64,000 bases of DNA from Crossaster papposus. Taxonomy: Eukaryota; Echinodermata; Asteroidea; Velatida; Solasteridae. Positions within the stretch are counted from its first letter, which is position 1; the number at the start of each line of letters is the position of its first letter. Below are positions 16,591-62,361 of this stretch, piece after piece. The position numbers and the translations under genes were made by a program. The notes under the pieces are model-generated. The model was not told where the DNA came from. It did no database searches and saw only the letters and a list, made by a program, of their open reading frames with translations. Location of the stretch: positions 992,001-1,056,000 of the forward strand of contig JBAIAA010000318.1 of assembly GCA_037893245.1 (NCBI GenBank), in the 5' to 3' direction.

Positions 16591-17570
16591 GAAGTACACG
16601 ATTTTAAGGTCCGGCAAATTGTCGCCATTTTGTTCGACAAACAATGTCCACTTTAGCATGTACCGCCATCAATTTTCAGGTTTTCACAGAAAGCTACATA
16701 CGAATTTTCCTTTTAGATTTGTTTTAGGAATGAGAATTATTAAGACTATGGGCGGAATCTGCACGCTATAAGTAATACCTTACGGAAGCGGATATTCCGT
16801 TAATTTTTTTTTTAATATTATATTTATTTTTTATTAATTTTGTTAGGGGGGAGGGGGGGTGGGAGTTGTACCATATGCCTACGTAGCACAAAGCCAATTA
16901 CGACGTAGGGTCTGGGGCCCGCTTAACGGCCGGTTCATACTTCATGCGAATGCGATGCAAATTTTAATCGGTTTTATTTGTTTTGCGATACAATCAACTT
17001 TGATCAGCAGCCCCAAAGGAGGAAGGGGTGCAACAACAACCCGCCCTCTTCTATCCGCCACTCATACTACTACTTAGTTTAAATAGCACTAACCGTTTAT
17101 TGTAATTATTTAATTTTTAATTAACAACTGTAGTTTGTGTATATAGATGTAAATACAAAGATGCATATATTTCAGTTATTATCACATTATTATCACATTA
17201 TTCGAAAGTTCCCAGTCAGCACAAGTCGTGATATTAACGTTAACAATAGTTAATTTGGTTGATGTCTAATTTTGGTTTAATAATTGCATTACAAATGAAC
17301 GTTCACTTAAAGTCAGTTTTGTTAAAATTGTAAAATCATTTATTATATTGGTGGTGTATATTGGTGGCGCCCTTGATGGCTGCACCTTTCTTTTCTTTTT
17401 GTTGTCTGATCTGTGGCAAAAAGCTTCTTTTATGTGTGATTGCGTGCTTGTGTGTGATTTTAACTACGAACTGCTACCCTGTAAGTACTCCTGGATTTCA
17501 TTGACCATGGTTTTGTGTCGACAGAATAAAGCCCTTTGATGACATTTTGACTTTATTGTTTTTTTGACTT

Positions 17571-18761
17571 TTGAACTGCGGGGGATCATATTTTTTTATG
17601 TGCAGCCACCATTGTCTAGTACCCAGTATCATGATGACTCATATAACGTACTATATACGCACACTTCTGGCTATTAACAATACGGTTGCACGCACGTCTG
17701 TAGCCCGACCATTCAACCCGGAGAAGTGGCATGAAGTTAAGCTGCTTAAAATCGCATGTTCAACGAAGAGGGGCTTTCGTAGAGGCAGATTACGTAATAG
17801 TTTTTCAATTCCAACGTTGATTAATGCTCAACGTCAGTCTGTAATAAAGCCCGCCCGTACACCTGTATATGAAGCAAAATTAGTCCAAGTTCCTGTGCAG
17901 AAGCTGCCTGCTGCAAATAATGCACACAAATCACAGATAGCGATATGGAATGCGCACTCACTGACACGAAAAACTACTTCCATCACTGATTTCATCATCG
18001 GTGAAAAAATAGACCTTTTTGCCATCACTGAATCTTGGCTATCAGGCGATGATCGTGACAGCCATTCACTTGCTGAAGTAAGCAAAACATTGCCTCATTT
18101 CAACATTTACAATCAACCTCGTGCCCAGGGTAGAGGAGGCGGTTTATGCCTTTTTGCTCATCAAGGCTTTGTTGTCAAGCAAAATCTGCAAAAGTTTCAG
18201 TCATTCGAACACATGGATTTCGATGTGTCAGTTGGTGGTTCGTCTGTCAGACTTTTTATTATCTATCGACCACCACCTTCACAAACCAATAAGCTGACCA
18301 GTGTCATGTTCTTCAGGGACTTTTCCACTTTACTAGAGACAATAACCATACATCCTGGCCGTATAATTATGACTGGCGATTTCAATTTCCATATGGACGT
18401 CGAGAATGACCGAGATGCTACCACACTTCGAGAAATATTGAATTCTTCAAGTCTCCAGCAACATGTCATTGGGTCGACCCACCGACTTGGCTATACTCTC
18501 GATCTCGTGATCACCAGGACATCAGAAGATGTGGTCACCAACATCGACATTGTCCAAGGTCTCCCTTCAGATCACTATGCGGTCAAGTGCCATTTTGATA
18601 TATCCCGTCCTCATTCTGTGAAGAAGTTGGTCAAGTTTCGTGAGCTACGGAATATAGATGTAGCCAAACTCAATAGTGACATTGATGATTCAATCATTGG
18701 TAATATGTCACCAGGTGATGCTGAGCGAGTTGCTGGATGTACATGCACCAATCAAATCTAG
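17571..18761 (+). pseudogene. LINE endonuclease segment
   Basis: 396 codons. The N-terminal 120 residues are basic and unrecognised. The endonuclease starts at about residue 123 (IAIWNAHSLTRK) with the catalytic Glu in FAITESWLSGDD, then GGGLCLFAHQG, TGDFNFHMD (about residue 268) and the C-terminal SDHYAVKCHF (about residue 333). These are the standard motifs of LINE AP-type endonucleases, which nick target DNA for primed reverse transcription. A frameshift near 18,715 separates it from the next segment. Confidence 0.88.
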
Positions 18762-19353
18762 GCTCGTAACCCTACGCCCAAATGCTCCATGGTATTCCAG
18801 TGCTCTTCGAGTGATTAAGGTGAAACGTCGCCAACGCGAACGTGCCTGGATTGCCTCGGGTCTTGAAGTTGATAAACAGCTGTACAACGATCAATGCAAG
18901 GAGTATAGAAGGATGTTGGAGCAGGCAAAGTGTTCATACTATCGGACGAAACTGGCTGGCTGTGATGTTCGACAACTTTTTCAGTTTGTTGACAGCTTAT
19001 TCAAAGCTAATACGAGTACACGCCAAATCCTACCTCCACATGACTGTGCTCAGACGCTGGCAAACGACATGGTGGGTTTCTTTCACAACAAAATCAAGAC
19101 TCTCCGCAGTTATCTTGATATTCCTCAGCCTGTCATATCTGTCGACACTTGTGAATCATGTGAAAGTACATTTAGTTCATTCCGTGCAGTCTCTGAAACT
19201 GCAGTTCGCAAAATAATCAAGGAATCAGGAATGAAGTCATGTTCACTTGATCCACTGCCTGGCACATTCCTTACTCAATGCATTGACACTCCACTGCCTT
19301 GCATCACAAACATCGTCAACAAATCGCTGACCACTGGACAAAATGCCATCTGA
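18676..19353 (+). pseudogene. LINE linker and N-terminal reverse transcriptase segment
   Basis: Reads SELLDVHAPIKSRLVTLRPN followed by APWYS, the typical CR1/L2 linker after the endonuclease. It continues to KIIKESGMKSCSLDPLPGTF, the SxxKSCxLDPxP block at the start of the RT, and ends by frameshift near 19,343. Confidence 0.85.
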
Positions 19354-19933
19354 ACTGAAAACTACAAGAGTTGTCCCGTTGATCAAGAAACCATCTCTCG
19401 ATGCCAAACAATTTAATAACTACAGACCCATATCAAACCTGAAATTTGTATTCAAAACAATTGAAAGGGTTGCATCTTCCCAGTTGAATGTCTATCTACA
19501 GCGGAATGAACTGTATGGCGAAAGACAGTCGGCATATCGTAGATTTCACTCAACTGAGACAGCGCTTGTTCGAGTACAGAATGATCTTATCCAAGCTGTT
19601 GATCGCCACCAGGAAGCTGTTTTAATGTTGCTTGATTTCTCTGCGGCGTTTGATACAATTGATCATCAAATATTACTCAGACGTCTGCATAGTCGCTATG
19701 GGATCTCAGGCTCTGCACTTGGCTGGTTTTCGTCATACTTACAAGGCCGTCGTCAGTTCGTGGACATTTGCGGCGTTACGTCAGCAGAGTTTCTTCTTGA
19801 AGAGGGTGTCCCACAGGGGTCTGTGCTTGGAACTACCGTTTTCACATTGTATTCTGCTCCGATCAGCGATATCATCAACAATCACGGAATTAACCACATG
19901 ATTTATGAAGATGATACGCAGCTTTATCTATAG
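19343..19933 (+). pseudogene. LINE reverse transcriptase catalytic segment
   Basis: Contains NNYRPISNLKFVFKTIERV, LMLLDFSAAFDTIDH (first catalytic Asp), EGVPQGSVLG and the active-site motif YEDD at about 19,904, where the family usually has YADD. It ends in a stop three residues after DTQLYL because of a 2-base shift near 19,936. Confidence 0.9.
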
Positions 19934-19953
19934 TATTCAATCCATCGGAGCGC

Positions 19954-20751
19954 ATGGAAGCCATCACCACCCTTGAAAAATGTGTCACTGGCATCAAAGC
20001 CTGGGATGTCTGCAACAAAATGGTGTTTTATGACTCAAAGACAGAGATTGTTCATCTCAGTTCTCGATTTGTAAAAACACCATCCTTGCCTTCCATCATG
20101 GTTGGAGAAGTGAGTGTTGAAGCATCTAGCCCGGCCAGAGATCTCGGTGTTGTCATTGACAGCACTTTGGAGATGAAAGACCATGTTCTTGCGGTCACAA
20201 AATCTGCTTCATTTGCTCTGCATAAAATCAGTAAGATTCGCAGGTACCTTGACAAACACGCAACAGAACGACTTCTACATGCATTTGTGACTTCTCGGTT
20301 GGACTATTGCAACAGTCTTCTCTGTGGTATCCCTACATGTGACATTGCAAAGTTGCAAAGGATTCAAAATTCTGCTGCCAGGCTTATCATACGCACTAAA
20401 TATCGGGACCACATACAACCAGTGCTATATAATATGCATTGGTTGCCTGTTGCCCAGAGGATCGACTTCAAAATCTTGCTACTCACCTATAAAATCTTGA
20501 ATGAGTTTGCACCAGTCTACCTGAATGAGATCGTCACAAAATACCAACCTAGTCGTAGTCTCCGGTCATCATCACAACATCTCCTACGCCAACCAGCGCG
20601 AGGACGCACTGCTTATTACAGTGATCGTGCGTTCTCGCTCTCAGCTCCAAGGCTCTGGAACAATCTGCCGCCCCACATTCGTGACTCCAATTCACTGGAG
20701 CATTTTATGAATATTCTTAAGACACATCTTTTTAACATTGCTTTTAGTTAG
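19954..20751 (+). pseudogene. LINE RT thumb and C-terminal segment
   Basis: 265 codons, with CVTGIKAWDVCNKMVFYDSKTE (the family WMxxNxLxLNxxKTE block), VSVEASSPARDLGVVIDSTL, FVTSRLDYCNSLLCG and RIQNSAARLI. The tail includes HWLPVAQRIDFKILLLTYK and DRAFSLSAPRLWNNLPPHI, the standard end of CR1/L2 ORF2. Ends at TAG just before the 3' UTR. Confidence 0.9.
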
Positions 20752-25140: not shown

Positions 25141-25419
25141 ATGGCACTCTATGGAGTACATGTATTCATCAACACGAAAGGTTCGTTTTCTATGGAAACA
25201 GAAAGCGCTATTTATTGTGTCTTTCCAGATGCAACAATATCGGCGCAGTTCTCCGATGTTTTCTCAGTCCCAAAAAAATGTGAATGCGGAAACAAGGTTA
25301 ATTCTATAGAGTACATCGTAACTTGCATTAACGGACAGTTTTACAAAAGTTTGGAAAACCAGATTGTGCAGCAAGCTCAAAAAGGAATATATGTATTCAT
25401 TCATTCACTGTACAAGTGA
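25141..25419 (+). other. Unassigned 92-codon open frame
   Basis: Starts MALYGVHVFINTKGSFSMET and includes VPKKCECGNKVNSIEYIVTC. Codon use looks normal and there is a C-x-C pair, but I recognise no family, and there are no clear splice sites or neighbours to support it. It may be a chance frame. Confidence 0.2.
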
Positions 25420-25887
25420 TCAGGCAGGCACGCGTCACGCTACACTCAAGGCAGTCGCAATGGAGGGCGCGCGTGGCATGGATCGGTGTATTGGGTCGTA
25501 TGAATAAAAACTAGCAAATGCTATGAAGTACAATAGTGGGGCGGCTTAGCTCAAAAAAAAAGGTCGATTGTGCACTTTCCCTTAAAAGCATGAAACTTGG
25601 CACATAGTTAGAGTAACACAATACAAGGATTTTTAGTCCAGGGGCCACCGGAAATTGCACCCCGTATGGCGGCCATCTTGGATTTCAAAATGGCCGCCAT
25701 TGTGGATCTGTTTTGTTGAATATCTCCTTAACTGGTAGAGATATCGAGACAGTTGAAACGCCTATACCCACATTTTAGGGGTCTAGGAATCCATTGGCGA
25801 CATAAAAGTTTGAAAATTGTGGCCGCCATCTTGAATTCCAAGATGGCCACCATCCACGAGCTATTTTGCTCAATATCTCATGATTTT

Positions 25888-26379
25888 ATAATTTTAGAAA
25901 TGAGATGGCACTATCCCATTCAGTGACACTCCCTTTCTCTTGACTTGTTTTGGCTTAAAATGGATTTTAAGCATGACTTAGTCTTTGCCGGTTATGTCCA
26001 AATTAAAATGTATATTGGGTGGACATAAGAGATTGAGTGACTTTAGTTGGTTGGATAATCAGATGTGATTAGAGGTGCGAGCAGAGGATTATGTTTACAA
26101 ATCCTCTTGATAGCAATAGCATGCTTTCGTGCCTTGCTGTAGCACTCGTCAGTTGCGAATGGGTGATTCAAAAAGAATCGAAGCTGACTTGCAGAGAGGT
26201 TGTGGTTGGGATTGGGTATATTCCAATCATGTAAGTTTGGATTGAGCCATATGTTTGTTAGTCGGTTTCAGATTGTTCCTCCAGTAAGGAGAGCAATATG
26301 TTGAGGGTTTCGTCTGGTTCAGTAGGTTGTTCGAAAAAGCCAGAGTCTGTTGGGAGTGGTTCGAGCTTTTGCTTTTGAT
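25888..26379 (-). mobile_element. Partial PLE copy (3' part), not converted
   Basis: A direct repeat of 26,380-26,880 with normal base composition. In the minus direction it encodes the last residues of the PLE protein (PTDSGFFEQPTEPDETLNIL then LSLLEEQSETD) before TAA at 26,260-26,258, then the 3' UTR. It lies immediately 3' (in the sense direction) of the full copy, as in the partial tandem arrangement known for PLEs. Confidence 0.85.
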
Positions 26380-26765
26380 TTCAGAAATGAGATGGCACCA
26401 TCCCACCCAGCGACACTCCCCCTCTCTCGACCCGTTCCGGCCCAAAATGGACCCCAAGCATGACCCAGTCTTCGCCCAGTCTTCGCCGGCTACGTCCAAA
26501 CCAAAATGCACATTGGGCGGACACAATAGACTGAGCGACTCCAGCCGGTTGGACAACCAGATGTGACTAGAGGTGCGAGCAGAGGACCACGTTTACAAAC
26601 CCCCCCGACAGCAACAGCATGCTTTCGCGCCCCGCTGCAGCACTCGTCAGCTGCAAATGGGTGACCCAAAAAGAATCGAAGCTGACTCGCAGAGAGGTTG
26701 CAGCTGGGACCGGGCACACTCCAATCATGCAAGCTTGGACCGAGCCACACGTCCGCCAGCCGGCT

Positions 26766-28727
26766 TCAGACCGCCCCCCCCCCCCCCCCCAGCAAGGAGA
26801 GCAACATGTTGAGGGCTTCGTCCGGCTCAGCAGGCTGCTCGAAAAAGCCAGAGTCTGCCGGGAGCGGCTCGAGCCCCCGCTGTGGCAGCTCAGCTCCCAC
26901 CAACCTCTCCCGAATGCTCTGGGCCCCCTCGAAGGCAACAAAAGGAGGCCTCGGAAAAAGCTCCGAGAGCACCCGACTGCCCTCGATCAAGCTCCAGTGC
27001 CTGCCCACCGCTCGACACATGTCACCGCGATGCATGGCTGGGCTGCAGGTGGCTGCGAAGACAAGCGGAGCCCGTCCTGCTCCCTCTCCATCCCCTGCGC
27101 CGTGCACCAGTCTCGATCGGTCGGCACGTGAGACCCCGGCTGCTGCCGCTCCGACTTCACCGGAAGTGCAGCCTCCCGTGGTTAGCCTCTCCGAGAACAC
27201 CTCGACTCCGCTGCGGAAACCATCCGCGTTGCCGGCGCCCCCAGCGCAGCGGAGCGCCTCCCCGCACATGAACGCCTTGAAAATACGGGGTGGGCGGGAT
27301 GATGCCCCACGGAGATACTGGAAGGTCTCCGCCGGCCCCCTGCAGACCCCGGCGTCCAGGACTCCTGCTCCATGGAAACGGTCTCGTTCAAATATGGTCA
27401 AGTCAAGGTAGCCGATTGATGATTCAGAGGCCCCGCATGCAAACCTTAGAGTTGGGCGCATCCCGCCCACCTCCGCGACGAGACCCCGGAACTCGTTCAG
27501 AGCTCCGTTGCAGATGACCAACATGTCGCCTCCACAGCGCCACCATGCAAGAATGCCACCCGCCCCCTGGACCACTTTGCCCTCGAAGCCGTGCAGGGCG
27601 ACGTCACAAATTTCAGGGCCTGATGCGGAGCCCACCGCACAACCAACCCTCCGGAGAAAGAACCCACTCCCGAAACGGAAGCAGCCGCGACCGAGGATGA
27701 GTTCCAGAAGCCCCCGGATGCAAATTGAAGGTGGTTCCGCGACTGGGCGGCAACGGCCTGCGCCCTCGAGGGCACCGCAAACGCATTGGACCGCCCCCGC
27801 CCGTCGGACACCGGTGCACATAGAAACAACATCCATACTCGCGACCAGGACATCCCGCGAAAAATGTCCCTCCTCCAGCCCGCGCAAAACGTCCGCCGTA
27901 TCGCGGACACATGTGGGCCGCGCGGCCACCATGGGAAGAATGAAGCAGTCTATGCACTCTGAAACCCCCACCGTAGGGCCAGTACAACCACCCACAATTG
28001 GACGTCCAACAAAAGGCTCCCCCGGTGGCGGTGCCCCGCGCACCTTGGGGAGAAAACACATGGCCGGACACTGACAGCTCCGCAAAAGTGGGCCGAGGCA
28101 CCTCAAAGCATCGCTGCCGATGCGCCTGCCGCCTCTCACCTCCACGAGTGTGCCGCGAACCATCGCAACAGTTTGCGGGGCAACACCCCGGTCCAGCTGG
28201 GCACAGCGATGGGACTCAAGGCGGCGGCAATCCACCCGTAAATAATCCGAGCGGCCCACAATGCAAATGCCCCCGCCCCCGCCACACGGCTCGACCACGA
28301 TGTCAGGACCGTTCCCGAGTCCACCCATGGCGGACAAATCCCGCGCGGTCACGTCCGCCCGCCGACTCCCCAGCCCGACACGGGCCAGCTCGAACCCAGC
28401 GGCCTCCAAGCACTCTTTTAGCGTTGCACCAGGGGACGACTCAGGTCGCCAGCCCGATGGCGGCCCGAAAGGATGGCCCCTGGAGCGCCCATCACGCACC
28501 AAGAATGCAACTCCCCGCCTTCGACTGAAGGCACTCACGCCACCTACAAGCGCCCCGCGGCCCGGCCCGGCCCAGCAGGAGCAGGCACGAAACCTAAACC
28601 CCTTCCCAAAGCAACTGCTTCGGTCCGCGACAGTGCCGCCCCGGATAGGCCTGCCACGAAGGACCGGCACCGCTCCGCCAGCGAGCGCAAATGACTGGAG
28701 CCGGCTCGCCCGGCTCTCGATCCGCAC
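26766..28727 (-). pseudogene. PLE reverse transcriptase, sense-strand A-to-G altered
   Basis: 653 open codons. Recognisable in order: FGPPSGWRPESSPGATLKEC, DIVVEPCGGGGGICIV (family: KPxDKGGxxxV), CFLPKVRG (family: LPKIHK), GRPIVGGCTGPT, YVRDT-like CVRDTADVLRGLEEG, ASMDVVSMCTGV (family: DVxSLYTxI), the FxFGSGFFLRRVGCAVGS block, WWRCGGDMLVI at about 27,525 (family: RYIDDxxxI), and C-terminal LFPRPPFVAFEGAQSIRERL. Deviations such as Y to C, K to E, N/D to G, H to R and I to V/M all correspond to A-to-G. Loss of the catalytic Asp makes it inactive. The great length of the frame is partly an artefact, because stop codons need A. Confidence 0.85.
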
Positions 28728-28918
28728 TTGCCCGAGAAACGGCCAGACCTCGACCGACCAAGCAATCCCTCAGCTTTCCCGTCGAGTTCTCCTCCCGCCA
28801 CGGCAGCCAAGAGACCAATGGCCCGGATACAACAGACAATGCAGGATGGGCCACATTCCAGTTCATTTATTACAGCCACCATACAATAATAAGGGCAAGA
28901 TGACGGACCCACCTCCAC
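28544..28918 (-). pseudogene. PLE N-terminal segment in another frame
   Basis: Contains LSRTEAVALGRGLGFVPAPA, matching the PLE N-terminal signature LSxxExxVLxKGLxFxPTP that precedes the RT. It lies in a different frame from the RT segment, so at least one frameshift lies near 28.55 kb. Same A-poor composition. Confidence 0.7.
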
Positions 28919-28930
28919 CGAGAAGGCGGG

Positions 28931-29464
28931 TCAGCCCCGAAAAGGACAACTCGGCCCCGCAGTGGTCAGAGATCGGCTCAGGGCTGTCGCCCCCTCCCGA
29001 CGCCCCCGTTGGGCCGACAGGGTCCTGTGAAGAAGCTCAGGAAGCCTCCGAGCGGCAGAATGGTCCCGACCCTGGAAACCCCCAGCAAGCCCTTCCTGCG
29101 CCGAGCGTCCGGCGCCGGCGAGCCGGTCCCCGGCGACTGGCAGCCGGTGCGTGCACCCCTCCAGATAGATTCCCGCGAACAGCAACGATGCTCCCCTCCG
29201 GAGACCGCTCCAACGATCCCGGAACGAACCCTGAAACCTCAGAGATCGGCGCAGATGCGGTGGCCGCACGTCCACCTTGATACAGGGTGGCGGCGTGCCA
29301 GCCTCGACCGACCGGGAAAGGAGCCGCACCTGGCGGGCGATGCGCTCCCCGGCAGCCGTCAAAGCGCTGACGCCTTCCGCCAGGAACCTCACCCGTTTGA
29401 AACCCTCCTCGGACAGTCCGCGCGAGAACGCGGCCGGCCCGGTTGCCGATGCAGATGGGCCCAA
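28931..29464 (-). pseudogene. PLE N-terminal region, unrecognised
   Basis: 177 open codons in the minus direction, upstream of the RT signature and within the converted zone. Rich in Gly, Arg, Ala and Ser as expected of A-to-G converted sequence. No GIY-YIG or other domain is recognisable. It may be N-terminal coding or 5' leader. Confidence 0.4.
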
Positions 29465-31159
29465 GTCCAGCTCGCAGGAGAGGAGAAGACCCCTAAAACG
29501 TGGGTATAGGTGTTAAAAATGTATTGATATCTTTACTACTTCATGAGATATTGAGCAAAATAGCTCGTGGATGGTGGCCATCTTGGAATTCAAGATGGCG
29601 GCCACAATTTTCAAACTGTTATGTCACCAATGGATTCCTAGACCCTTAAAATGTGGGTATAGGCGTTTCAACTGTCTCGATATCTCTACCAGTTAAGGAG
29701 ATATTCAACAAAACAGATCCACAATGGCGGCCATTTTGAAATCCAAGATGGCCGCCATACGGGGTGCAATTTCCGGTGGCCCCTGGACTAAAAATCTTTG
29801 TATTGTGTTACTCTAACCATGTGCCAAGTTTCATGCTTTTAAGGGAAAGTGCACAATTGATCAGCTAAGCCGCCCCACTACAAGCAAAAAGTAAATGCAT
29901 TTACTTCGAAGTAAAAGCATTAAGTAAAAGCAAATGCTTCAATTCGTATGAATAAAATAAAGTGTTACTGTTTAGCATTTACTGGCTGAAATAGCAGTAA
30001 ATGCTTTTTACTTGCAATTGATTTCACAGCCGAATGGTTTATAACAATAGAGTCTCTATTGTGTGTACAATACACACACACGCATAGACGCTCGTACGCT
30101 GACAGGGGTGTTTGAATGAAATCGGAACCTCAAGTTACTGCTTCGCAGTCACGATGCCGTTTTCTGTCTCAGCAATATTGCAAGAAATTATCGGCCATCT
30201 ACGTCTCATTTCCTTGCCCAAAATCAGTACAACTGCTTGCATTTTAATCCTAGACAATCCATCTTCCATGTTCATAACTTTTCCTGCCTAACCACAATAT
30301 ACAAAAGCTTCTATTTTTTATATTAGTATTTGCTTCTCTTTTTTCAAGGTAGCCCCGACCCAACCTTGAAAAATTACGAGTAAATACTGCAAATCTGAAG
30401 CATTTACTCATTTTTATTCATACCAAATGGAGCAAATACTAATATTCTAGCAAATGCTGGAAATTAAAAAGTAAATACTTTTAGTCTTTAGCAAATACTT
30501 TCAAGTAAAACCTTTTGCTTTATTTTTATTCATACAGATTCCAGTAAATGCTTGAAAATTGATAGTAAAAGCAAATGCTAGTTTTTATGCATACGGCCCA
30601 TTGTTTCAGATCTCAGCTCCATAATCCATTCCGCCACGCACCTTTAAGTTTAAGCTGCCCCAAAACAATACGAGTTTAATCATACCTATTTCCCCGTAAA
30701 ATAAAGGAAGAGAACCCGAAAACCACTTCGTACTTTTTCGACCCTACTCGCCGTAGTGCAAAAAGTGATTGTCGCAGCACGCCATCGCACAAATCGGTTG
30801 GGGGCTGGCCTAATCGTGTCGTTGGCGGGCGCACTGCATGCTTTTAAAATTGTACGCGACGTGCACTATCAACGAATGGATACTGTAGTTTTGGCCCACG
30901 CGAAACTCAAAATCAATTTTGTGGGTTCTGATTCTTCCGAGGTCTTCCCAGCCTCTATATGTTGACCATGAGAAGTGTGCCGTCACCCCTTGGGTCTGGG
31001 TAAGGGTTTTTATTGTTGTGGTGGTATTTTGCATTGGTCTACTTTGAGGTTGTTAGTTGTAACTGTTGTGAGATGTGCGCCGTCACATGGTACAGTAGTG
31101 CTCAAATGTAATTGCGCGGACTCCCCCTACTATTCGCGCATTGTAGTCATTCGCGTTTG

Positions 31160-35170: not shown

Positions 35171-35731
35171 TTTTGTTTCGGAAAGGTTGCTGTGCTTTTA
35201 TTCATTCGTTGAATACATTTACAAAAAAACTCTGTTAACCCTTTCAGTACCAAGGCATATTTTGTCACAGTAATTACATGATATGACCAGTTAGTGACCA
35301 ATTACTTGTTGCCAATTTGTAGTGTATAGCGCCCTCGCAAGTCAAAGTAATGAAAGGCCACTCTTCTTTGAAGTGGTGTTGAATTATAATGGATTGACAG
35401 TACCCCCAAAGCAACGACTATTAGATTAATTAAAACAACAATATTGGCCTGTGAGAATATTTGTTGGGGAAGGGTAGGAAAGAATTATATATCTCACCCC
35501 ACTTTTTTGCCCTTGATATGAGTTGACAACTACCAAGAAGTGTAAAGAAACAATAACTTAGGAGTGAGAACAGTTTTTCTTTGAGAATACTTGGATTTTA
35601 TTCAAAATGAAGGAAATCCGGACTGTGAAGGTAATTGCACAAACATTCAAAATGGGTACACTATGGATGCAGTCAAAAGTTTTTTTTAAAAATGGGTACA
35701 CTATGGATGCAGTCAAAGGTTTAAATAAAGG

Positions 35732-37448
35732 CCCCCCCTACACCCCCCCCCCTACACCCCCCCCCCTACACCCCCCCCCTACACCCCCCCCCTACACCCC
35801 CCCCCTACACCCCCCCCTACACCCCCCCCTACACCCCCCCTACACCCCCCCCCCCTACACCCCCCCCCCTACACCCCCCCCCCTACACCCCCCCCCTACA
35901 CCCCCCCCCCTACACCCCCCCCCCCCTACACCCCCCCCCCCCTACACCCCCCCCCCCCTACACCCCCCCCCCCCTACACCCCCCCCCCCCTACACCCCCC
36001 CCCCCCCTACACCCCCCCCCCCCCTACACCCCCCCCCCCCCTACACCCCCCCCCCCCTACACCCCCCCCCCTACACCCCCCCCCTACACCCCCCCCCTAC
36101 ACCCCCCCCCTACACCCCCCCCCTACACCCCCCCCCTACACCCCCCCCCTACACCCCCCCCCTACACCCCCCCCCCTACACCCCCCCCCTACACCCCCCC
36201 CCTACACCCCCCCCCCTACACCCCCCCCCCTACACCCCCCCCCCCCTACACCCCCCCCCCTACACCCCCCCCCCTACACCCCCCCCCCCTACACCCCCCC
36301 CCTACACCCCCCCCTACACCCCCCCCTACACCCCCCCCTCTACACCCCCCCCTCTACACCCCCCCCTCTACACCCCCCCCTCTACACCCCCCCCTCTACA
36401 CCCCCCCCCTCTACACCCCCCCCTCTACACCCCCCCCTCTACACCCCCCCCCTCTACACCCCCCCCTCTACACCCCCCCCTCTACACCCCCCCTCTACAC
36501 CCCCCCCCTCTACACCCCCCCCTCTACACCCCCCCCCCTCTACACCCCCCCCTCTACACCCCCCCCTCTACACCCCCCCCTCTACACCCCCCCCTCTACA
36601 CCCCCCCCCTACACCCCCCCTCTACACCCCCCCTCTACACCCCCCCCCTACACCCCCCCCCTACACCCCCCCCCCCTACACCCCCCCCCCCTCTACACCC
36701 CCCCCCTACACCCCCCCCCCCCTACACCCCCCCACCTACACCCCCCCACCTACACCCCCCCCCCACCTACACCCCCCCCCCCTACACCCCCCCCCCCCTA
36801 CACCCCCCCCCCCCCCTACACCCCCCCCCCCTACACCCCCCCCCCCCTACACCCCCCCCCCCCCCTACACCCCCCCCCCCCTACACCCCCCCCCCCCCCT
36901 ACACCCCCCCCCCTACACCCCCCCCCCCCCTACACCCCCCCCCCTACACCCCCCCCCCCCTACACCCCCCCCCCCTACACCCCCCCCCCCCCCTACACCC
37001 CCCCCCCCCCCCTACACCCCCCCCCCCCCCCTACACCCCCCCCCCCCCTACACCCCCCCCCCCTACACCCCCCCCCCTACACCCCCCCCCCCCTACACCC
37101 CCCCCCCCTACACCCCCCCCCCCCCCTACACCCCCCCCCCCCCCCTACACCCCCCCCCCCCCTACACCCCCCCCCCCCCTACACCCCCCCCCCCCCTACA
37201 CCCCCCCCCCCCTACACCCCCCCCCCCCCTACACCCCCCCCCCCCCTACACCCCCCCCCCCCCTACACCCCCCCCCCCTACACCCCCCCCCCCCTACACC
37301 CCCCCCCCCCCTACACCCCCCCCCCCTACACCCCCCCCCCCCCCCCTACACCCCCCCCCCCTACACCCCCCCCCCCCCTACACCCCCCCCCCCCCTACAC
37401 CCCCCCCCCCCCTACACCCCCCCCCCCCTACACCCCCCCCCCCTACAC
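35732..37448. repeat. C-rich minisatellite, units TACACCC(C)n, about 1.7 kb
   Basis: Well over 100 head-to-tail units of 10-17 bp with variable C runs. A block of CTCTACACCCC units (about 36,335-36,630) and a few ACCTACACCCC units (about 36,730-36,775) form local sub-arrays. The other strand is G-rich and should form G-quadruplexes. No stop codon can occur in this unit, so a long open frame (Y/T/P/L/H only) crosses it; this is not evidence of a protein. Confidence 0.9.
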
Positions 37449-37786
37449 CAAACTGTTTTTGCTCCGAATGACTTTCGTGTCGATTTTGCAGTTTTCAACA
37501 TCTGTGAGAGGAGTTACACGCTTGGCATCCTGTCAAACGACGCACAGTTGGCCGGCTTTGGTGTAAAACTGGGGGTCAGCACCTCTTATCATGTGTAACT
37601 TTTGGGGGTTTGCACAATCTGGAATCCCCAGTGTGGTGTAGCGTGCAGTTCCACAAGCTCCAAACTTTAACTGTGACAACTTGCAGATGAGAGCTGGGCT
37701 GGTATACCAATTGTCCATGAAAATGAAATGTCCCTTATGTTCAAGTCCTGTAATTAGGTCGAGGACTACATGCCCACTAGATTTAA

Positions 37787-38451: not shown

Positions 38452-39654
38452 ATAACGTAATGTTAGGTGGGTGGTGTGTTGAAGCATAACCAACGGAGGG
38501 TCGACTAGATTCCTTTGATGTGGGCTGATAGCCGGTGAACACCTTCCAAGCACATGTATAACCGGTTTCTGACTCGTTCAAAGAAAACATTTCAATCCCC
38601 ATTTGGCGGACTTTTTTGGCATGTACTGTTTGAAACCAAGTCGGCCAGTTTGAACTTGATCATTGTCAAATCCGTTGAGAGGTTTAGGTCTGGCTTGTAA
38701 AAGCGAGAAAAGGATGGCAGTACAATGTCGAGCAGCGGGCGGACCTTGGAGAGTTTGTCAGGGAGATCATCACCTGGTTGAGCTCTGTTGTTGGCAAGGT
38801 GGAAAGATCGAAGGATCGCAGCGAATCGATTGCAATACATGTTCGCCGAATACAGGGGACTTCGCAGAACTTCGGCCTGGACCAGTGCATTCTGTAGCGA
38901 GGCCTTTTGTTGATACCCATGCACAGAAGCAAGGCCATGAATGCCATAATTTCAAGAACAGTAGTTGGAGTCCAGGCAGGCTGATGATTGGCCACAACTT
39001 CACACATGGTTTGTTCTGCATAGCGATTGGTCTCGTCCACCATCAACTCCCACACTGCTTGGCAGAAGAAGAGCTGAAAGATTTGCATGGGCGACAGGTG
39101 ACTGAAATCTCAGTGAATTTTATCAGTGGGCGCTTGCTATAAGAGGTGCTTGCTTTATTCCATCCACACCTGAAATAGAAACATTCAGAAAGGTTAATGG
39201 GACACTATTCATTTCACGGCACATTTTCTTGTAAGTATAGTATACAACATTGGGTTGTTGGGTGTTTTTTCTTTGGGGGGGGGGGGGGGGGGGGGGGGGT
39301 GGTGGATCGGAGCGGGGTGGCGGGTCAAACGGATGTATCCGGGGTTTAGTATTTTGGGGGCCGACGGTTGGCCAACCATCTTTGGAAATTGCTAAACAAT
39401 ATCAGTTTTTTAAAACAGAACAGCACACCAGGTGCCCCGGTTTCACAGGATGCCTAAGATCATTCGTGACTGTCAAATATGGTCATTCATTAAATGAACT
39501 AGTTTTTGTCTTGTTTTGGTCGCAAATGTTGTATTACCTTTAATGACGAACTGTCCTTACAATGCTGTTTGTAAATGTTCGCATCTAGTGTTCCCACTGA
39601 AAGAAGTCTCCTTTTTTAATAAAATAAAATCTCATGAACTAAAATCTAATTGTT

Positions 39655-40490
39655 AAAGATTATTTTATAAAAATAGATCAAAATTTACAATCAATAGAAA
39701 GATAAGAATATGTAAACATATTTATGGCCAATCTTCTGGTACCACACATAAAATTATTCGTAACATCACTTGTAGTACATCTAATGTCGTATATCTCATT
39801 TCTTGCAGGTTTTGTGGAGTTCAGTATGTCGGAGAGACCAACAATGTCATAAAAGGGCGTTTCTACGTTCATCGATCGACTGTCAACATCAAGAAACAAG
39901 ACACCCCCGTCGGTCACCACTTTAATCAGCCTAACCATTGCATTTCTGATATGATTCTACAGGGCATAGAATCACTGGCCATCGGAAAGACTCAGTCCGT
40001 CTCAACCGGGAGAAAGTTTGGATGAATCGTCTTCGGACTATTCAACCACATGGGCTCAACATCCAGCAAGGAAACTATTAACTTCTATTGTTTTCCCCCA
40101 TTTGTCATCTGTTTCAGATTTAATCCTTGCCAGCAGTTTGCTCTTATTTGTTCTCACTCCTTTGGCTTTCCCCTTGTCTATTGTCCTAACCCCCCCCCCC
40201 CCCCCCCCCCCCCCTTCACATTTCTCCTATTAACACTTCTTGGTTAGTTCTTTCTTTGATCCTACCCACACTGATCTTTCCCTTTAACCCTTCAGCCTAA
40301 TCCTCCTTTTGTTGTTCCCACATAACTCAGTACATGACTTTTCTTTTTTGTTTCTCCTGCCAGCTATGATCTGCATCATGCTGCATGTTGCCCTATATAT
40401 GTTTGTTTCGTGTACACAGCCATTATGTCCCTGAAGAAGATCTTGTTAAGATCGAAATATTAGGCCCTCTTAACTTATTTAATATGTAAA
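39655..40490 (+). mobile_element. Endonuclease-bearing Penelope-like element, 3' fragment
   Basis: In the + direction, HKIIRNITCSTSNVVYLISC and CGVQYVGETNNVIKGRFYVH then TPVGHHFNQPNHCISDMILQ match the PLE C-terminal GIY-YIG nuclease (here VVYL...QYVG) with its CxxC...C zinc linker. One frameshift occurs near 39,990: the C-terminal part (REKVWMNRLRTIQPHGLNIQ) is in the next frame and ends at about 40,082. The RT is missing (5' truncation). The 3' UTR ends near the CCTGAAGAAGATCTTG...CGAAATATTAG stretch at 40,430-40,470, followed by A/T-rich DNA. Confidence 0.8.
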
Positions 40491-49200: not shown

Positions 49201-52050
49201 GGTCAATATTTGGCACGATATTTCTCTTTCACGTCATGCGCTTTTCAGTTTCCATAAATTGAGATGCTAATAATAATTTAACAATAGCCTTTTTCAAAGG
49301 GTGATTTTTTTTTTAAACATACTCGTCAAATCGTATACTAAAATTGTTGTTTATTGAAAACATTTATTATTACAGTTTCCTTACTGGCGTATACTGAAAC
49401 ACATAACGTGTGAAACTGACGTTTTTGCCTTTAACAGCTCTGCTCACAAAAATGGAAATTCTCATTAGCATAAAACACGTACACTCTAAAGTGGCGGCAC
49501 GGAGGATACTAATTAATGACACGAATGCATATTGAAGGTTTGCATTTTTTAAAAGACGATATTAAAAATAAACATTCTGGGCCGTATGCATAAAAAATAG
49601 CATTTGCTTTTACTACCAATTTTCAAGCATTTACTGGAATCTGTATGAATAAAAATGAAGCAAAACTGGAAAGTATTTGCTAAAGACTAAATGTATTTAC
49701 TTTTTAATTTCCAGCATTTGCTAGAATATTAGTATTTGCTCCATTTGGTATGAATAAAACTGAGTAAATGCTTCAGATTTGCAGTATTTACTCGTAATTT
49801 GTCAAGGTTGGGTCGGGCCTACCTTGAAAAAAGAGAAGCAAATACTAATATGAAAAATAGGAGCTTTTGTATATGTGGTTAGGCAGGAAAAGATATGAAC
49901 ATGGAAGATGGATTGTCTAGGATTAAAATACAAGCAGTTGTACTTATTTTGGGGAAGGAAATGCGACGTGGATGGCCGATAATTTCTTGCAATATTGCTG
50001 AGACAGAAAAGGGCATCATGACTGCAAAGCAGCAACTTCATGTTCCGATTTCATTCAAACACCCCTGTCAGCGTACGAGCGTGTGTGTATGGGTGTGTAT
50101 GGTACACACTATACAGACTCTATTGTTATAAACCATTCGGATGTGAAATCAATTGCAAGTAAAAGGCATTTACTGCTATTTCAGCCAGTAAATGCTAAAC
50201 AGTAAAACTTTATTTTATTCATACGAATTGAAGCATTTGCTTTCCCTTAATGCTTTTACTTTGAAGTAAATGCTTTTACTTTTTGCTTGTACTTCATAGC
50301 ATTTGCTAGTTTTTATTCATACGACCCCAGGTTCCGATTTCATTCAAACACCCCTGTCAGCGTACGAGCGTGTATGCGTGTTCTTGTCTTGCATTACGAT
50401 CGAGGATCGAAACACAAAAGAGAACAAAGGGAACAAAGGATCCTCGATCGACGGTTTGCTTGTCCGAATTCTGTCCTCGATCGACGGTGCAATGGCAAAG
50501 CAATGGGGATTGGGTTAAGTAAAGGAAGAAAGGAAAACACAATATCGATCCTCGGTCGTTATGTGGTTCACGACTGTGTGGGTGTGTATCGTACACACAA
50601 TTCAGACTCTATTGTTATAAACCATTCGGCTGTGAAATCAATTGCAAGTAAATTTTAGCCAGTAAATGCTAAACAGTAAAACTTTATTTTATTCATACGA
50701 ATTGAAGCATTTGCTTTTCCTTAATGCTTTTACTTCAAAGTAAATGCTTTTACTTTTTGCTTGTACTTCATAGCATTTGTTAATTTTTATTCATACGACC
50801 CTCTGTCTCAAACTTGATTTTTTTAATATTTTTTTTGTATATATTTTCCAAATGTTTGTATAAGGCAGCCTGTGACATGCTAGCATTCAATTGACATAAG
50901 TAGCACTGGCATTCGCCGCTTGAATAATACTCCCATTCATGTCAATCCACTGGATCCATTGGTACACTCTAAAAAACAAAGGGCCGTATGCATAAAAACT
51001 AGCATTTGCTTTTACTATCAATTTTCAAGCATTTACTGGAATCTGTATGAATAAAAATAAAGCAAAAGGTTTTACTTGAAAGTATTTGCTAAAGACTAAA
51101 AGTATTTACTTTTTAATTTCCAGCATTTGCTAGAATATTAGTATTTGCTCCATTTGGTATGAATAAAAATGAGTAAATGCTTCAGATTTGCAGTATTTAC
51201 TCGTAATTTTTCAAGGTTGGGTCGGGGCTACCTTGAAAAAAGAGAAGCAAATACTAATATAAAAAATAGAAGCTTTTGTATATTGTGGTTAGGCAGGAAA
51301 AGTTATGAACATGGAAGATGGATTGTCTAGGATTAAAATGCAAGCAGTTGTACTGATTTTGGGCAAGGAAATGAGACGTAGATGGCCGATAATTTCTTGC
51401 AATATTGCTGAGACAGAAAACGGCATCGTGACTGCGAAGCAGTAACTTGAGGTTCCGATTTCATTCAAACACCCCTGTCAGCGTACGAGCGTCTATGCGT
51501 GGGTGTGTATCGTACACGCAATAGAGACTCTATTGTTATAAACCATTCGGCTGTGAAATCAATTGCAAGTAAAAAGCATTTACTGCTATTTCAGCCAGTA
51601 AATGCTAAACAGTAACACTTTATTTTATTCATACGAATTGAAGCATTTGCTTTTACTTAATGCTTTTACTTCGAAGTAAATGCTTTTACTTTTTGCTTGT
51701 ACTTCATAGCATTTGCTAGTTTTTATTCATACGACCCAAAGTGCTAATTGAGCTCTTGAAGATATAAAGAGTTGCACTTCCAGGTGCTTGTATAGCGCTG
51801 CACTCAAAAAGAGCTACACTTGAGGTGCAATTTGCTGATTCAATATGTGCATTCACAGGGAGCTAAAATAAACACTATAAGTGCTACTTTTCTATAATTC
51901 CAAAACACAATAATTCAATCAATGAAGCTTGATGTTGGTTTTTTTTTCTCTCGCAAATTGTATTCCATCCAGAATGTGGCATCAAAGCGCGAAGTGTAGA
52001 CACTTAAATTGTCAATATACTATTCAAATTAAGTACCAAACTTTTAACTA

Positions 52051-52100
<50 letters not shown>

Positions 52101-55100
52101 ATTAATGGATAATAAGGTTTTCCCATAAAAATAAAAGAACAGGAATCTTTTGAAAACTAAATTCACTCTCCGAAAGTGTAATTGGTCCAATGTGTGAAGG
52201 TTTAGACTATTATCCTTAGTGATTTTTTCTCTTAGTGACAGCAGAAATGTTACTTTAAATATTGTAACCAGTGTGATTTACATCCAAAATTGCAATCTTC
52301 AATGATTTTCATTAGAAATTACTTATCACTGAATAACACATTTGGCTTATCTAATTTTATGTGTTTATACATGGTTAGACTTCTTCACAATTTTAGCCAA
52401 TTATGCTTTGGCAGGGAACATTTATACCGTTTGCAACGAAGGAGTCCAGCCTAGCTGGCGTTGTTTGGTCATGGTTTTAGGGCAATTATTGAATGTGCCT
52501 TAAGTGTCATGACAACTTCAGTTACTCGAGGTGGCAGCTTTCCTGTGTATTTGAGGCCATATACCTGAGACTTCAGGTAGATGAAGGAGTTCGTCAGGAA
52601 TGTGGAGTACTCCAGGTTGAACACATAGGATCTGTTTTACTAGTGATCTAGAGCCAAATGCAAAAAAGGCAAACTGCTTTGTTGATTCATTCTTCAATGC
52701 ACCCCAGATGTAGTTAATTGCCGACTTTTTAAGAAAAATAGTAAAAACAACAGAATTGTGTTAATCATTACAATCAAAAATAACATTTAAAAAATATTTA
52801 TACGTCACCAGAACTGACCTTAACACTTATAATAAAATAGCTTGGAGTTGAAAACTTCAAGTGTATGCCATGCTCTTCCTCATAACAATTATTATCACCA
52901 TGCATGATCAAGATTTATACTACATGTACCTCTAACTGCACCTATCATATTTCAGTTAACTTTCCAATGGCATAATTAATTACTGGGGGGGGGGTGTTAG
53001 ATTGCAAAAAAAAATTAAGCCCCTCTCTATATAATCATGTTGACTTGTTTTGCCTGGTTCCTTTCTTGTCTGCCAGTTACTCTTACTCTCAGCAGTCATT
53101 GCTGTATTCCTTTCAATGCATATCAACAATGGAATGACGTACATATGACTTAACTATAATTGTTTGTTCTTCTTTTTCCTAATTTGTTAAACGTTCACAT
53201 TTTGTACATCGAAATAATTGTTTTAATTTATTTTAAGGTTGTTATCTAAGTAAAAAGAACATTGTAAAAACAAAACGTATTTCAAGAAACTATTAAATGT
53301 GCCCGGAAGTTCGGTTTCTCGTAAAGTCTCGTACGTTCTCGAGGTCAACTTACGTGCTCTATTATAAGCCAGTTCGGTATTCCAACTGCGAATATGCACA
53401 ACAAGATTCGAGATAGTTTACTTCTGAAATAAACTGGTAGATAAATGCACACAAGTCTGAGAGAAACGTAAACCGAATCTGCATTTTTTTTTATTTCGTG
53501 CAATCGAAAAGACGATAGAAATTTGTGTTCGAATAAACACACAAAACGCCTAAAAACACTTTGTTGTTCAAACTGTTATTATTTTGTTAAGTTAATTCCG
53601 AACACGACGACCTCTTAAAATGTTTATGCCTTTACACGCGTATTATCATTTGGCAGACACAAAGGGGGCGCTGTTTAACGTGGTTAAAGTCCTTTCAGGA
53701 GTCATTTGTATTTACACAAACCCCAAAAGCGAAACTTTACGAGAAACCAAACTTCCGGCATAATACCTTCAACGTGTAAAGCCAGTAGCTTTCTTGAAAT
53801 ATTTGTTGACGTGATTATTTTTACTGAAATGTAGAAAATAAATAACGTTTTAATAAATATTTTTAATTTCAATTTACAAAATGAGAACGAGATTAAATTG
53901 TGAAAGAGGAGAGCGCAAAATATAGTTACGTCATAGGTACGTCATTCCATTGTTCTCGTTAACGCGCTTGTCTCTCTAAAAGTGTAGACCACATGCAGTA
54001 TAACACGGGCGTCGCCATTCAATTGTTGTAAACATTTCTGTAAAAAGTCATATTACGTCCGCTCACGCCCGCTCACGTCTGCGCACGCATGTCACAGACG
54101 CATACACAGCTCTACGTTATCATTTAGATGAAGTTGATCTGTTGACTCTCAATAGTACCTGTTCTACTCGCGAGGTGTCGAAGCACGGTGACCTTTTTTT
54201 CTCTGCGTCGCAGACGGCGGCTCTGTAAGCGCTTAGCGTTCTTGTCGTCGTCTTTGTCGTCGTTGTGCAAAACAATCGACATCTAGGAGCTTCTCTGTCT
54301 AAGCACCTAAAGAGAGCAACCAAAATTGGCAACCAAAGCAACACGACGATGTCGCGTATAGGCCTAAACTAAAGCCGAACGACGGTGTGGTTTTGGTTGT
54401 AGTAGAACAAATAGGTTCCATGATCCTATTAACTTAAGACGACACGGTGCCAATGAGGCATGTACCCAACGCGCATGCTCTTTGGCTCATGTGAAACAAA
54501 TGCTTGAATTGGTTCTATATTTTGAGTTGTGCATAATTTACCTAAATAACCCATTTCCACAGCTGCCTACGGAATGCCATTTCAAACCGTTGAGCCGAGC
54601 AAGAACTAGAGCAGGGAGCCTGAAAGTGCGCCATTTTGTTTTTGCACTTCCGGACCCCACGTATGTTCTTGCAAATGCACCTGTGTGCCACATAGTTCAG
54701 CGATAGTCAGAATACTTTTGGTCTGGAACCAAGACTTTTCTGGCGTTAAAAAAAAATGAGATGACGTTTGAAATCATTCTCTGTGATATCTGTTGTTAGC
54801 ACGGGGAAAAAAACCACACAATATTAGAAGTTTCAAATGGACAAAACGCATGAAAGATTATGAGAACATAACATGAATTTAACAACATGAGCTAAAAATG
54901 TATACATGTTAAACAATTTTGTAAGAAACCCGAAAATTTTGAACTCTGAAAGTGTTTCGATCATTACGATCATCGCAGAAAATGTCATCTTATCAAGTGC
55001 ACTTTCCATATGAATCATGACTTCAAATAACGAGACCAAGCGTTATCTAGTTGTTGCGAATAGCACAGTTCAAGGGAAAACGATTGCAAGATTTTGACAT

Positions 55101-62313: not shown

Positions 62314-62361
62314 GTAAGTAATAGCTGTCGTGATAGCTGAATTCGGTGTGTGTGTACACTA

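Follow-up and report, generated by a model that had tools for sequence, protein, structure and literature searches.

In a 64,000-nt window of the Crossaster papposus genome (contig JBAIAA010000318.1), a 3.1-kb retroelement copy appears to have had more than half of its sense-strand adenines changed to guanine, on one strand; the arms of the surrounding palindromic element and a neighbouring copy are untouched, and the change stops at the borders of the one copy. Judged from sequence, this tract is very probably the DNA record of a single Penelope-like element (PLE) RNA that was hyperedited by an ADAR-type enzyme and then reverse transcribed into the chromosome.

One-way, strand-specific change limited to one element copy

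The hypermutated copy stands in tandem with a short copy of the same family (Table 1). A MAFFT alignment of 25888–26380 (first copy) with 26380–26885 (second copy), counted on the + strand from first to second, gave 95 T-to-C changes, no C to T and no A to G; the remainder were two G to A, one G to T and two T to G, both of the last in a ragged end. Unchanged sites comprised 119 A, 70 C, 126 G and 70 T, gaps took up 29 columns, of which 21 fell in the first copy and 8 in the second, and 3 of the 318 non-T sites of the first copy had changed. The initial annotation had counted by eye about 90 one-way T/C substitutions and few others; a proper alignment, in which symmetric substitutions would have spoken against any strand bias, bears it out (95 versus 0). 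After trimming of the ragged ends, which removed 4 of the 95 changes, 91 of 159 sense adenines (57%) read as G in the second copy. BLAST of the pair likewise placed 89 of 92 differences in the T/C class, with none in reverse. Among the 56 repeat pairs of at least 100 bp that BLAST found in the window, no other had such a one-way skew; among the best 40 of the 56, ranked by share of the commonest class, the next two reached 6/11 and 6/13. The homologous part of the second copy also carries an 11-bp duplication (26464–26485) and, at 26774–26790, 17 consecutive C on the + strand.

Table 1 Features of the insertion and its surroundings (positions in the window)
Feature	Position	Strand	Evidence
Left arm of the palindromic element holding the insertion; unedited	25564–25883	.	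98% complementary to 29541–29860; flank-like composition
Short copy from the same family, 5′-truncated (3′ end only); unedited	25888–26379	-	Alignment with 26380–26885; composition
A-to-G hypermutated retroelement copy, sense = minus	26380–29494	-	One-way substitutions in 26380–26885; elsewhere, T depletion and change-points
Hypermutated part homologous to the unedited copy	26380–26885	-	Pairwise alignment
Damaged reverse transcriptase, 667-codon open frame; conserved part 26886–28052	26766–28769	-	
Upstream open frame inside the tract; no family above cut-off	28931–29494	-	Best Pfam E 0.05, below curated cut-off
Right arm of the palindromic element; unedited	29541–29860	.	Complementarity to left arm; composition

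The T/(T+C) ratio changed at 29494 (29491–29505) and at 26396 (26381–26402), so that the hypermutated span runs from about 26380 to 29494, limits that are those of one element copy. Per 100 bp, the ratio was 0.16–0.38 in the tract versus 0.47–0.84 in the flanks shown, and the implied editing level along the tract was 52–66%, varying with the assumed starting composition; these values describe a single locus, and no second copy of the body was found within the window. The arms lack T depletion, and with the T/(T+C) profile this confirms a 3.1-kb depletion that spares them, as had been reported. The span first proposed, 25888–29497, needs to be narrowed: 26380–29494 is hypermutated according to the change-points, but 25888–26379 is an unedited copy. 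Low T also occurs elsewhere in the window, in a C-rich satellite at 35.6–37.3 kb and in a C-rich stretch at 60.3 kb (0.32–0.35). A search for a target-site duplication returned a 4-base match only, and candidate unedited islands that could mark gaps in a duplex (27369–27423, and five TA steps from 28828) were not significant (740/5000 and 252/5000, respectively).

Identity of the element and direction of the change

Assignment to the PLEs is provisional: the 667-aa frame matched a hand-typed PLE consensus with E 1e-37 over 391 aligned positions, but, unmodified, it gave zero Pfam matches at E up to 10. By Pfam, GIY-YIG was absent from the unmodified frames 26766–28769 and 28931–29512, and in either copy the reverse-transcriptase frame runs into its stop codon within the repeat; the element therefore resembles an endonuclease-free PLE, or a relative. 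The GIY-YIG endonuclease is missing from some PLEs, and a hammerhead ribozyme is frequent in PLEs although not universal. No hammerhead was matched by Rfam up to E 5 in 25300–30100, where editing could mask one in the long copy, and the four weak Rfam matches to other RNA families, each under its gathering score, were not convincing. A partial tandem (pseudo-LTRs) is present as the full copy plus the 0.5-kb 5′-truncated one. Protein searches of viral_contigs and pattern searches of viral_contigs and genome_contigs did not recover the family, which fits a eukaryotic element, and the hand-typed consensus retrieved no genuine reference PLE from viral_contigs, PDB (E up to 1) or phages. Elsewhere in the window, a likeness of the frame at 61944–62321 to a CNTNAP-type exon, which would have pointed to an animal host, gained no support from searches.

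The copy pair by itself leaves the direction unfixed: the G-rich version could be the family norm, and 25888–26379 could instead have been hypermutated from sense G to A (+ strand C to T) by an APOBEC/AID-type or repeat-induced process. We regard this reversal as very improbable. In the reverse-transcriptase frame, sense A is flat from one codon position to the next (13.6, 14.1 and 12.0%), so the damage is blind to codon position and its direction can be read without relatives of the element. Under the reversal, the native protein would have had such flat A with 14% at codon position 2, a state found in none of 22 GC-matched phage genes (21–36% A at position 2); unlike the tract frame, LINE frames in the window are not flat either. 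Against the hand-typed consensus, which was written after the frame had been seen, sense A to G was the best of 12 substitution types, accounting for 56 of 246 mismatches versus 22.4 in shuffles, and G to A covered 5 versus 3.8; both tests thus give A to G and not the sense G to A of an APOBEC-type scar. Compositionally, the outlier is the 3.1-kb copy and not the short copy. Neighbour context does appear under the reversal too, the G-to-A share being lowest before A (7/26) and highest before T (24/33). Many APOBEC3s, however, favour a 3′ A (TC in the cDNA), here the least affected context.

A sense A-to-G direction is supported by codon-position composition, the consensus test and neighbour context, in agreement with the initial annotation, and the departures in conserved motifs from which the annotation had read it (RYIDD-type to RCGGD, LPKIHK-type to LPKVRG and DVxSLYTxI-type to DVVSMCTGV) are seen in the 667-aa frame. 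Stop codons are depleted in the tract (14 per kb in sense versus 39 for the short copy), but this was not counted towards direction: low sense A or low + strand T produces it whichever reading holds, and it is visible on the + strand too.

In the repeat, the edited share depended on the sense 5′ neighbour: 23/26 after T (0.88), 37/58 after A (0.64), 23/48 after C (0.48) and 8/27 after G (0.30; p 8e-5). This order, T>A>C>G, was the best of 24 and arose in 0 of 20,000 permutations (repeat only), and it matches the U>A>C>G order of ADAR. The upstream base was G for 8/91 edited adenines, against 19/68 of the unedited ones; in edited human cDNA, an upstream G is given as 7.85% versus 30.3% (Zaranek et al., PMC2873906). 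The 3′ neighbour had no significant effect in the repeat (A 30/59, C 27/41, G 10/21, T 24/38; p 0.31), and neither form of the reported 3′ rule of hyperediting, G in mammals and reptiles or A in amphibians and invertebrates (PMC5625713), was seen; as the rule varies by clade, we did not take it as defining. In the body, which lacks an unedited state for comparison, A/(A+G) was 0.105 after T, 0.339 after C and 0.285 after G, that is, low A after T was present but adenines after G were not specially spared, and neighbours may themselves have been edited. The ADAR-type 5′ preference (U and A favoured, G avoided) is thus found in the repeat and ambiguous in the body. With the two ragged-end T-to-G columns set aside, the changes are A to G only, on one strand and clustered, as in ADAR hyperediting.

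Origin of the scar

The proposal that the change goes back to A-to-I editing of the element's RNA is supported by the 5′-neighbour order, by the 57% level, which is close to the figure of almost 50% that a review (PMC12925331) cites for avian retroviruses, and by borders that are those of one element copy. We suggest that a full-length sense PLE transcript formed a duplex from end to end, the complementary RNA coming from antisense transcription or from an inverted copy; the even editing level along 3.1 kb suggests such a double-stranded substrate. An ADAR-type enzyme may then have deaminated more than half of the adenosines in the duplex, and the inosine-bearing RNA would have been reverse transcribed, probably by the protein of an unedited copy. 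The product would have been joined to the unedited 5′-truncated copy within the palindromic element and inherited; the two copies would thus come from different molecules or events.

Errors of the reverse transcriptase would likewise yield sense A to G, confined to precisely the one element copied, if C were inserted opposite template A because nucleotide pools were unbalanced or because the enzyme was adenine-prone, like that of diversity-generating retroelements. Those elements, which change A to any base in a short variable repeat, share with the tract an adenine-specific change tied to reverse transcription, but here the change is A to G only, bar two unreliable end columns, and covers the whole element. 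All 95 changes are A to G, with no A to T, and A to C in just the two ragged-end columns. Excess dCTP, through the next-nucleotide effect, should favour adenines adjoining G in the template, yet those were the least changed (8/27), and the neighbour order is best matched by ADAR; we consider such errors unlikely. Adenine could instead have been deaminated in DNA, on the sense strand, by ADAR acting on DNA:RNA hybrids or by an ADAT-type DNA deaminase. This has some biochemical footing: amphioxus ADAT2/3 deaminates A of DNA in vitro (PMC10354150), and ADAR can edit hybrid DNA in model substrates, although the source for the latter leaves open whether retroviral hybrids are edited in this way (PMC12925331). 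The DNA of the first hybrid is, however, the antisense strand, where editing would give sense T to C (0/119 seen), and ADAT2/3 also deaminates C (PMC10354150), whereas sense C to T occurred at 2/129 sites; this route is quite improbable. A GC-rich tract (65% in the reverse-transcriptase frame) with a run of 17 C might raise suspicion of an assembly artefact, of mutation bias or of ordinary GC-biased conversion, but these have next to no likelihood. GC-biased conversion, already set aside by the annotation as not one-stranded, should raise A to G on both strands, and the + strand has 0 A to G against 95 T to C; the other 55 repeat pairs show no such skew, and an artefact would respect neither element borders nor a neighbour rule.

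Precedents and significance

ADAR A-to-G hyperediting of retroviral RNA is described for Rous-associated virus 1, avian leukosis virus, HTLV-2 and STLV-3 (PMC12925331, PMC8586724). Those cases share with ours A-to-G clusters in reverse-transcribed RNA, in the avian ones at nearly half of the adenines, but concern viruses, partly in cell culture only, and local stretches, whereas here a chromosomal retrotransposon is affected over its full 3.1 kb. The G-to-A scars left by APOBEC in retrotransposons are also deaminase scars fixed in genomic copies, but differ in base, enzyme class and stage (cDNA, versus RNA as proposed here; PMC2873906); the same study reports that A-to-G clusters were not over-represented in high-quality DNA traces. 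Metazoan hyperediting of repeats, with clustered A-to-I in duplex-forming repeats and upstream G avoided, is described there from RNA only, and our tract is DNA (PMC5625713). PLEs themselves form partial tandems of a full and a 5′-truncated copy and insert within other repeats (PMC3846280, PMC11167929), and their type of reverse transcriptase is suggested here by the hand-typed consensus; unlike those described, this element gave no GIY-YIG or hammerhead, and its long copy is hypermutated. Among the open-licence papers listed in literature searches on editing, hypermutation and PLE features, there are retroviral precedents, but no title or abstract opening reports A-to-G scars in PLEs or in any other retrotransposon of the germ line.

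In 2016, a review on how retrotransposons are restricted treated roles of ADAR editing in Alu subfamily evolution and in mutational suppression of retrotransposition as undetermined but logically assumed (PMC4982230). A full-length ADAR-like scar in a chromosome would demonstrate that editing does not bar a retrotransposon RNA from reverse transcription and inheritance. Strand-specific A/G clusters together with the 5′-neighbour rule offer a simple test for any animal genome, and hyperedited copies may evade ordinary homology searches, as the absence of a Pfam match to the 667-aa frame suggests. More tentatively, ADAR could act as a germ-line mutator of retrotransposons in this host, hyperediting duplex PLE RNA; some of the dead copies would still be inserted, and many copies would bear A-to-G scars. 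If that is true, germ-line ADAR scars would parallel, at the RNA level, both APOBEC scars and repeat-induced point mutation.

The retroelement and its setting

The retroelement lies inside a palindromic element as a partial tandem, in which a long, hypermutated copy is joined to a short, unedited and 5′-truncated copy homologous to its 26380–26885 portion (the repeat); the rest of the long copy is termed the body.

Features of the retroelement locus and of its surroundings in the window
Feature	Position	Strand	Remarks
Palindromic non-coding element enclosing the retroelement	arms 25564–25883 and 29541–29860		arms 98% complementary
Retroelement, long copy	~26380–29494	minus	partial tandem, inside palindromic element
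3′ fragment of same family (short copy)	25888–26379	minus	downstream of long copy in sense direction
Open frame, 667 codons	26766–28769	minus	within long copy
Inverted repeat pair	29879–30606 and 50974–51701		728 bp, 99.3% identity; starts at outer edge of right arm
Direct repeat pair	52102–54409 and 56940–59256		2.3 kb, 96.4% identity
LINE-type retrotransposon remains	17568–20751		frames with Exo_endo_phos (E 4e-8) and RVT_1 (E 2e-23); composition control
piggyBac-like transposase fragment	38684–39109	minus	DDE_Tnp_1_7, E 1e-15
Frame with GIY-YIG match	39657–40025		marginally below Pfam cut-off (E 2.7e-4); probably relic of another, endonuclease-bearing Penelope-like element
Long tandem array	35725–37470		C-runs spaced by TACA (some TCTACA); zero G on + strand in 36001–37000

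Pfam gave no match to the unmodified 667-codon frame with an E limit of 10, and a PDB search returned just two designed proteins (E 0.04 and 0.19), which we took as chance matches. An ad hoc reverse-transcriptase consensus of Penelope-like elements (PLEs), written after the frame was seen and read by Pfam as RVT_1 (E 3.4e-13), matched over 26886–28052 without frameshift or stop (E 1e-37 for the window, 107/391 identical; runner-up E 0.58). The element behaves like a PLE and, judged by this reverse-transcriptase match and the partial tandem, is probably one or a near relative; a full and a 5′-truncated copy in partial tandem are described for a PLE (PMC3846280). Because the frame stops inside the repeat in both copies and no GIY-YIG (Pfam, element's frames) was found, it would be an endonuclease-lacking form; no hammerhead was found with Rfam.

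One-way substitution and its direction

Base-by-base alignment on the + strand revealed 95 T-to-C changes from the short to the long copy and 0 in reverse, bearing out the one-way difference that the initial annotation had claimed. The remaining substitutions were 2 G to A, 1 G to T and 2 T to G, the last both in the ragged alignment end, and 315 of the 318 aligned positions with a base other than T in the short copy were unchanged. Trimming drops four of the 95 changes, so that 91/159 sense As (57%) are edited in the repeat, that is, A in the short copy and G in the long one, at 0.40–0.68 per 60-column bin and without significant clustering (567/5000 permutations). BLAST alignment of the pair placed 89/92 differences in one class (0 reverse), whereas other window repeat pairs reached at most 6/11 and 6/13 (56 pairs of at least 100 bp in all). 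The signature is known from this single locus. Beyond these changes the long copy carries a duplicated stretch of 11 bp and an extended run of C; the copies otherwise differ little, which fits a young insertion. The run, 17 Cs at 26774–26790 where the short copy has a brief T/C stretch, perhaps arose by slippage once T-to-C change had created a homopolymer.

The direction, sense A to G as initially proposed, was upheld mainly by codon-position composition. Sense A makes up 13.6, 14.1 and 12.0% of positions 1, 2 and 3 in the 667-codon frame, as against 21–36% at position 2 and 1–10% at position 3 in every one of the 22 phiC31 genes that are 640 bases or longer (GC 61–68%); position-2 A in window controls was 29–32% (three LINE frames), 33% (GIY-YIG relic) and 23% (piggyBac-like relic). 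Low A, flat over codon positions, is expected from codon-blind change. Sense A/(A+G) is 0.70 in the short copy, ~0.61 in the flanks and 0.24–0.29 in the long copy, which is thus the compositional outlier, the short copy being flank-like. Relative to the ad hoc PLE consensus, A to G can account for 56/246 mismatches (353-column alignment), the highest of 12 substitution types and above shuffle expectation (22.4 ± 4.4; none of 2000 shuffles reached 56); C to G (32 vs 18.2) and G to C (13 vs 6.0) also exceeded shuffles, and the reverse type, G to A, accounts for 5 vs 3.8. Since the consensus was written after the frame was seen, codon-position composition carries the weight of this argument. Stop-codon depletion in the tract fits A to G and is uninformative on direction.

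Extent of the tract and enzyme signature

T/(T+C) per 100 bp of + strand was 0.16–0.38 from 26401 to the tract end and 0.47–0.84 in the flanking kilobase, with best change-points at 26396 (26381–26402), the junction between copies, and 29494 (29491–29505), the junction with the palindromic element. The proposed T depletion over ~3.1 kb sparing the flanking arms held. The arms differ from each other at 6/320 positions without one-way skew. Low T by itself is not special to the tract, occurring also in a C-rich satellite and at 60.3 kb. Two patches within the tract (27369–27423 and 28828–28890) appeared less edited, not significantly by permutation. Boundaries at element junctions and arms without skew indicate that the process acted on one element copy; because the arms would pair with each other over their length if transcribed by read-through and yet are untouched, hypermutation most likely preceded insertion.

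In the repeat, the edited share depended on the 5′ neighbour of the sense A (T 23/26, A 37/58, C 23/48, G 8/27; p 8e-5), and T>A>C>G was the best of 24 neighbour orders (0/20,000 permutations as good). ADAR enzymes prefer 5′ neighbours in the same order, T(U)>A>C>G. No 3′-neighbour preference was found in the repeat (p 0.31). G lies upstream of 8/91 edited and 19/68 unedited As there, an avoidance shared with human cDNA, where it precedes 7.85% of enriched vs 30.3% of other mismatches (PMC2873906), and with edited sites across metazoans, where upstream G is strongly depleted (PMC5625713). In the body, whose sequence before editing is not directly readable, A/(A+G) was lowest after T (0.105, vs 0.339 after C), as expected for the ADAR order; As after G were not particularly spared (0.285), and the preceding G may itself be an edited A. 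The editing level implied along the tract was 52–66% in 7 bins, by assumed starting composition, and the 57% of the repeat is close to the level cited for avian retroviruses with hyperedited RNA, almost 50% (PMC12925331).

A proposed route through duplex RNA

These retroviruses are among the viral precedents for A-to-G hyperediting (PMC12925331). Among the papers listed by literature searches, none describes in its title or abstract opening a retrotransposon scarred by A-to-G change in the germ line, and a review calls ADAR's mutational role against retrotransposition undetermined (PMC4982230).

Deamination of the cDNA strand would give sense T to C, seen at 0/119 positions of the copy alignment, so strand logic favours RNA as the substrate. 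The most likely route is that full-length sense RNA paired with complementary RNA, that an ADAR-type enzyme deaminated it in the duplex, and that reverse transcription and insertion followed. The shift from edited to unedited sequence where the copies meet points to separate molecules or events as their sources; PLEs are described as forming tandem arrays and as starting reverse transcription internally (PMC11167929). Inverted repeats and palindromes are also reported for PLEs (PMC3846280), and these would be a possible source of long duplex RNA.
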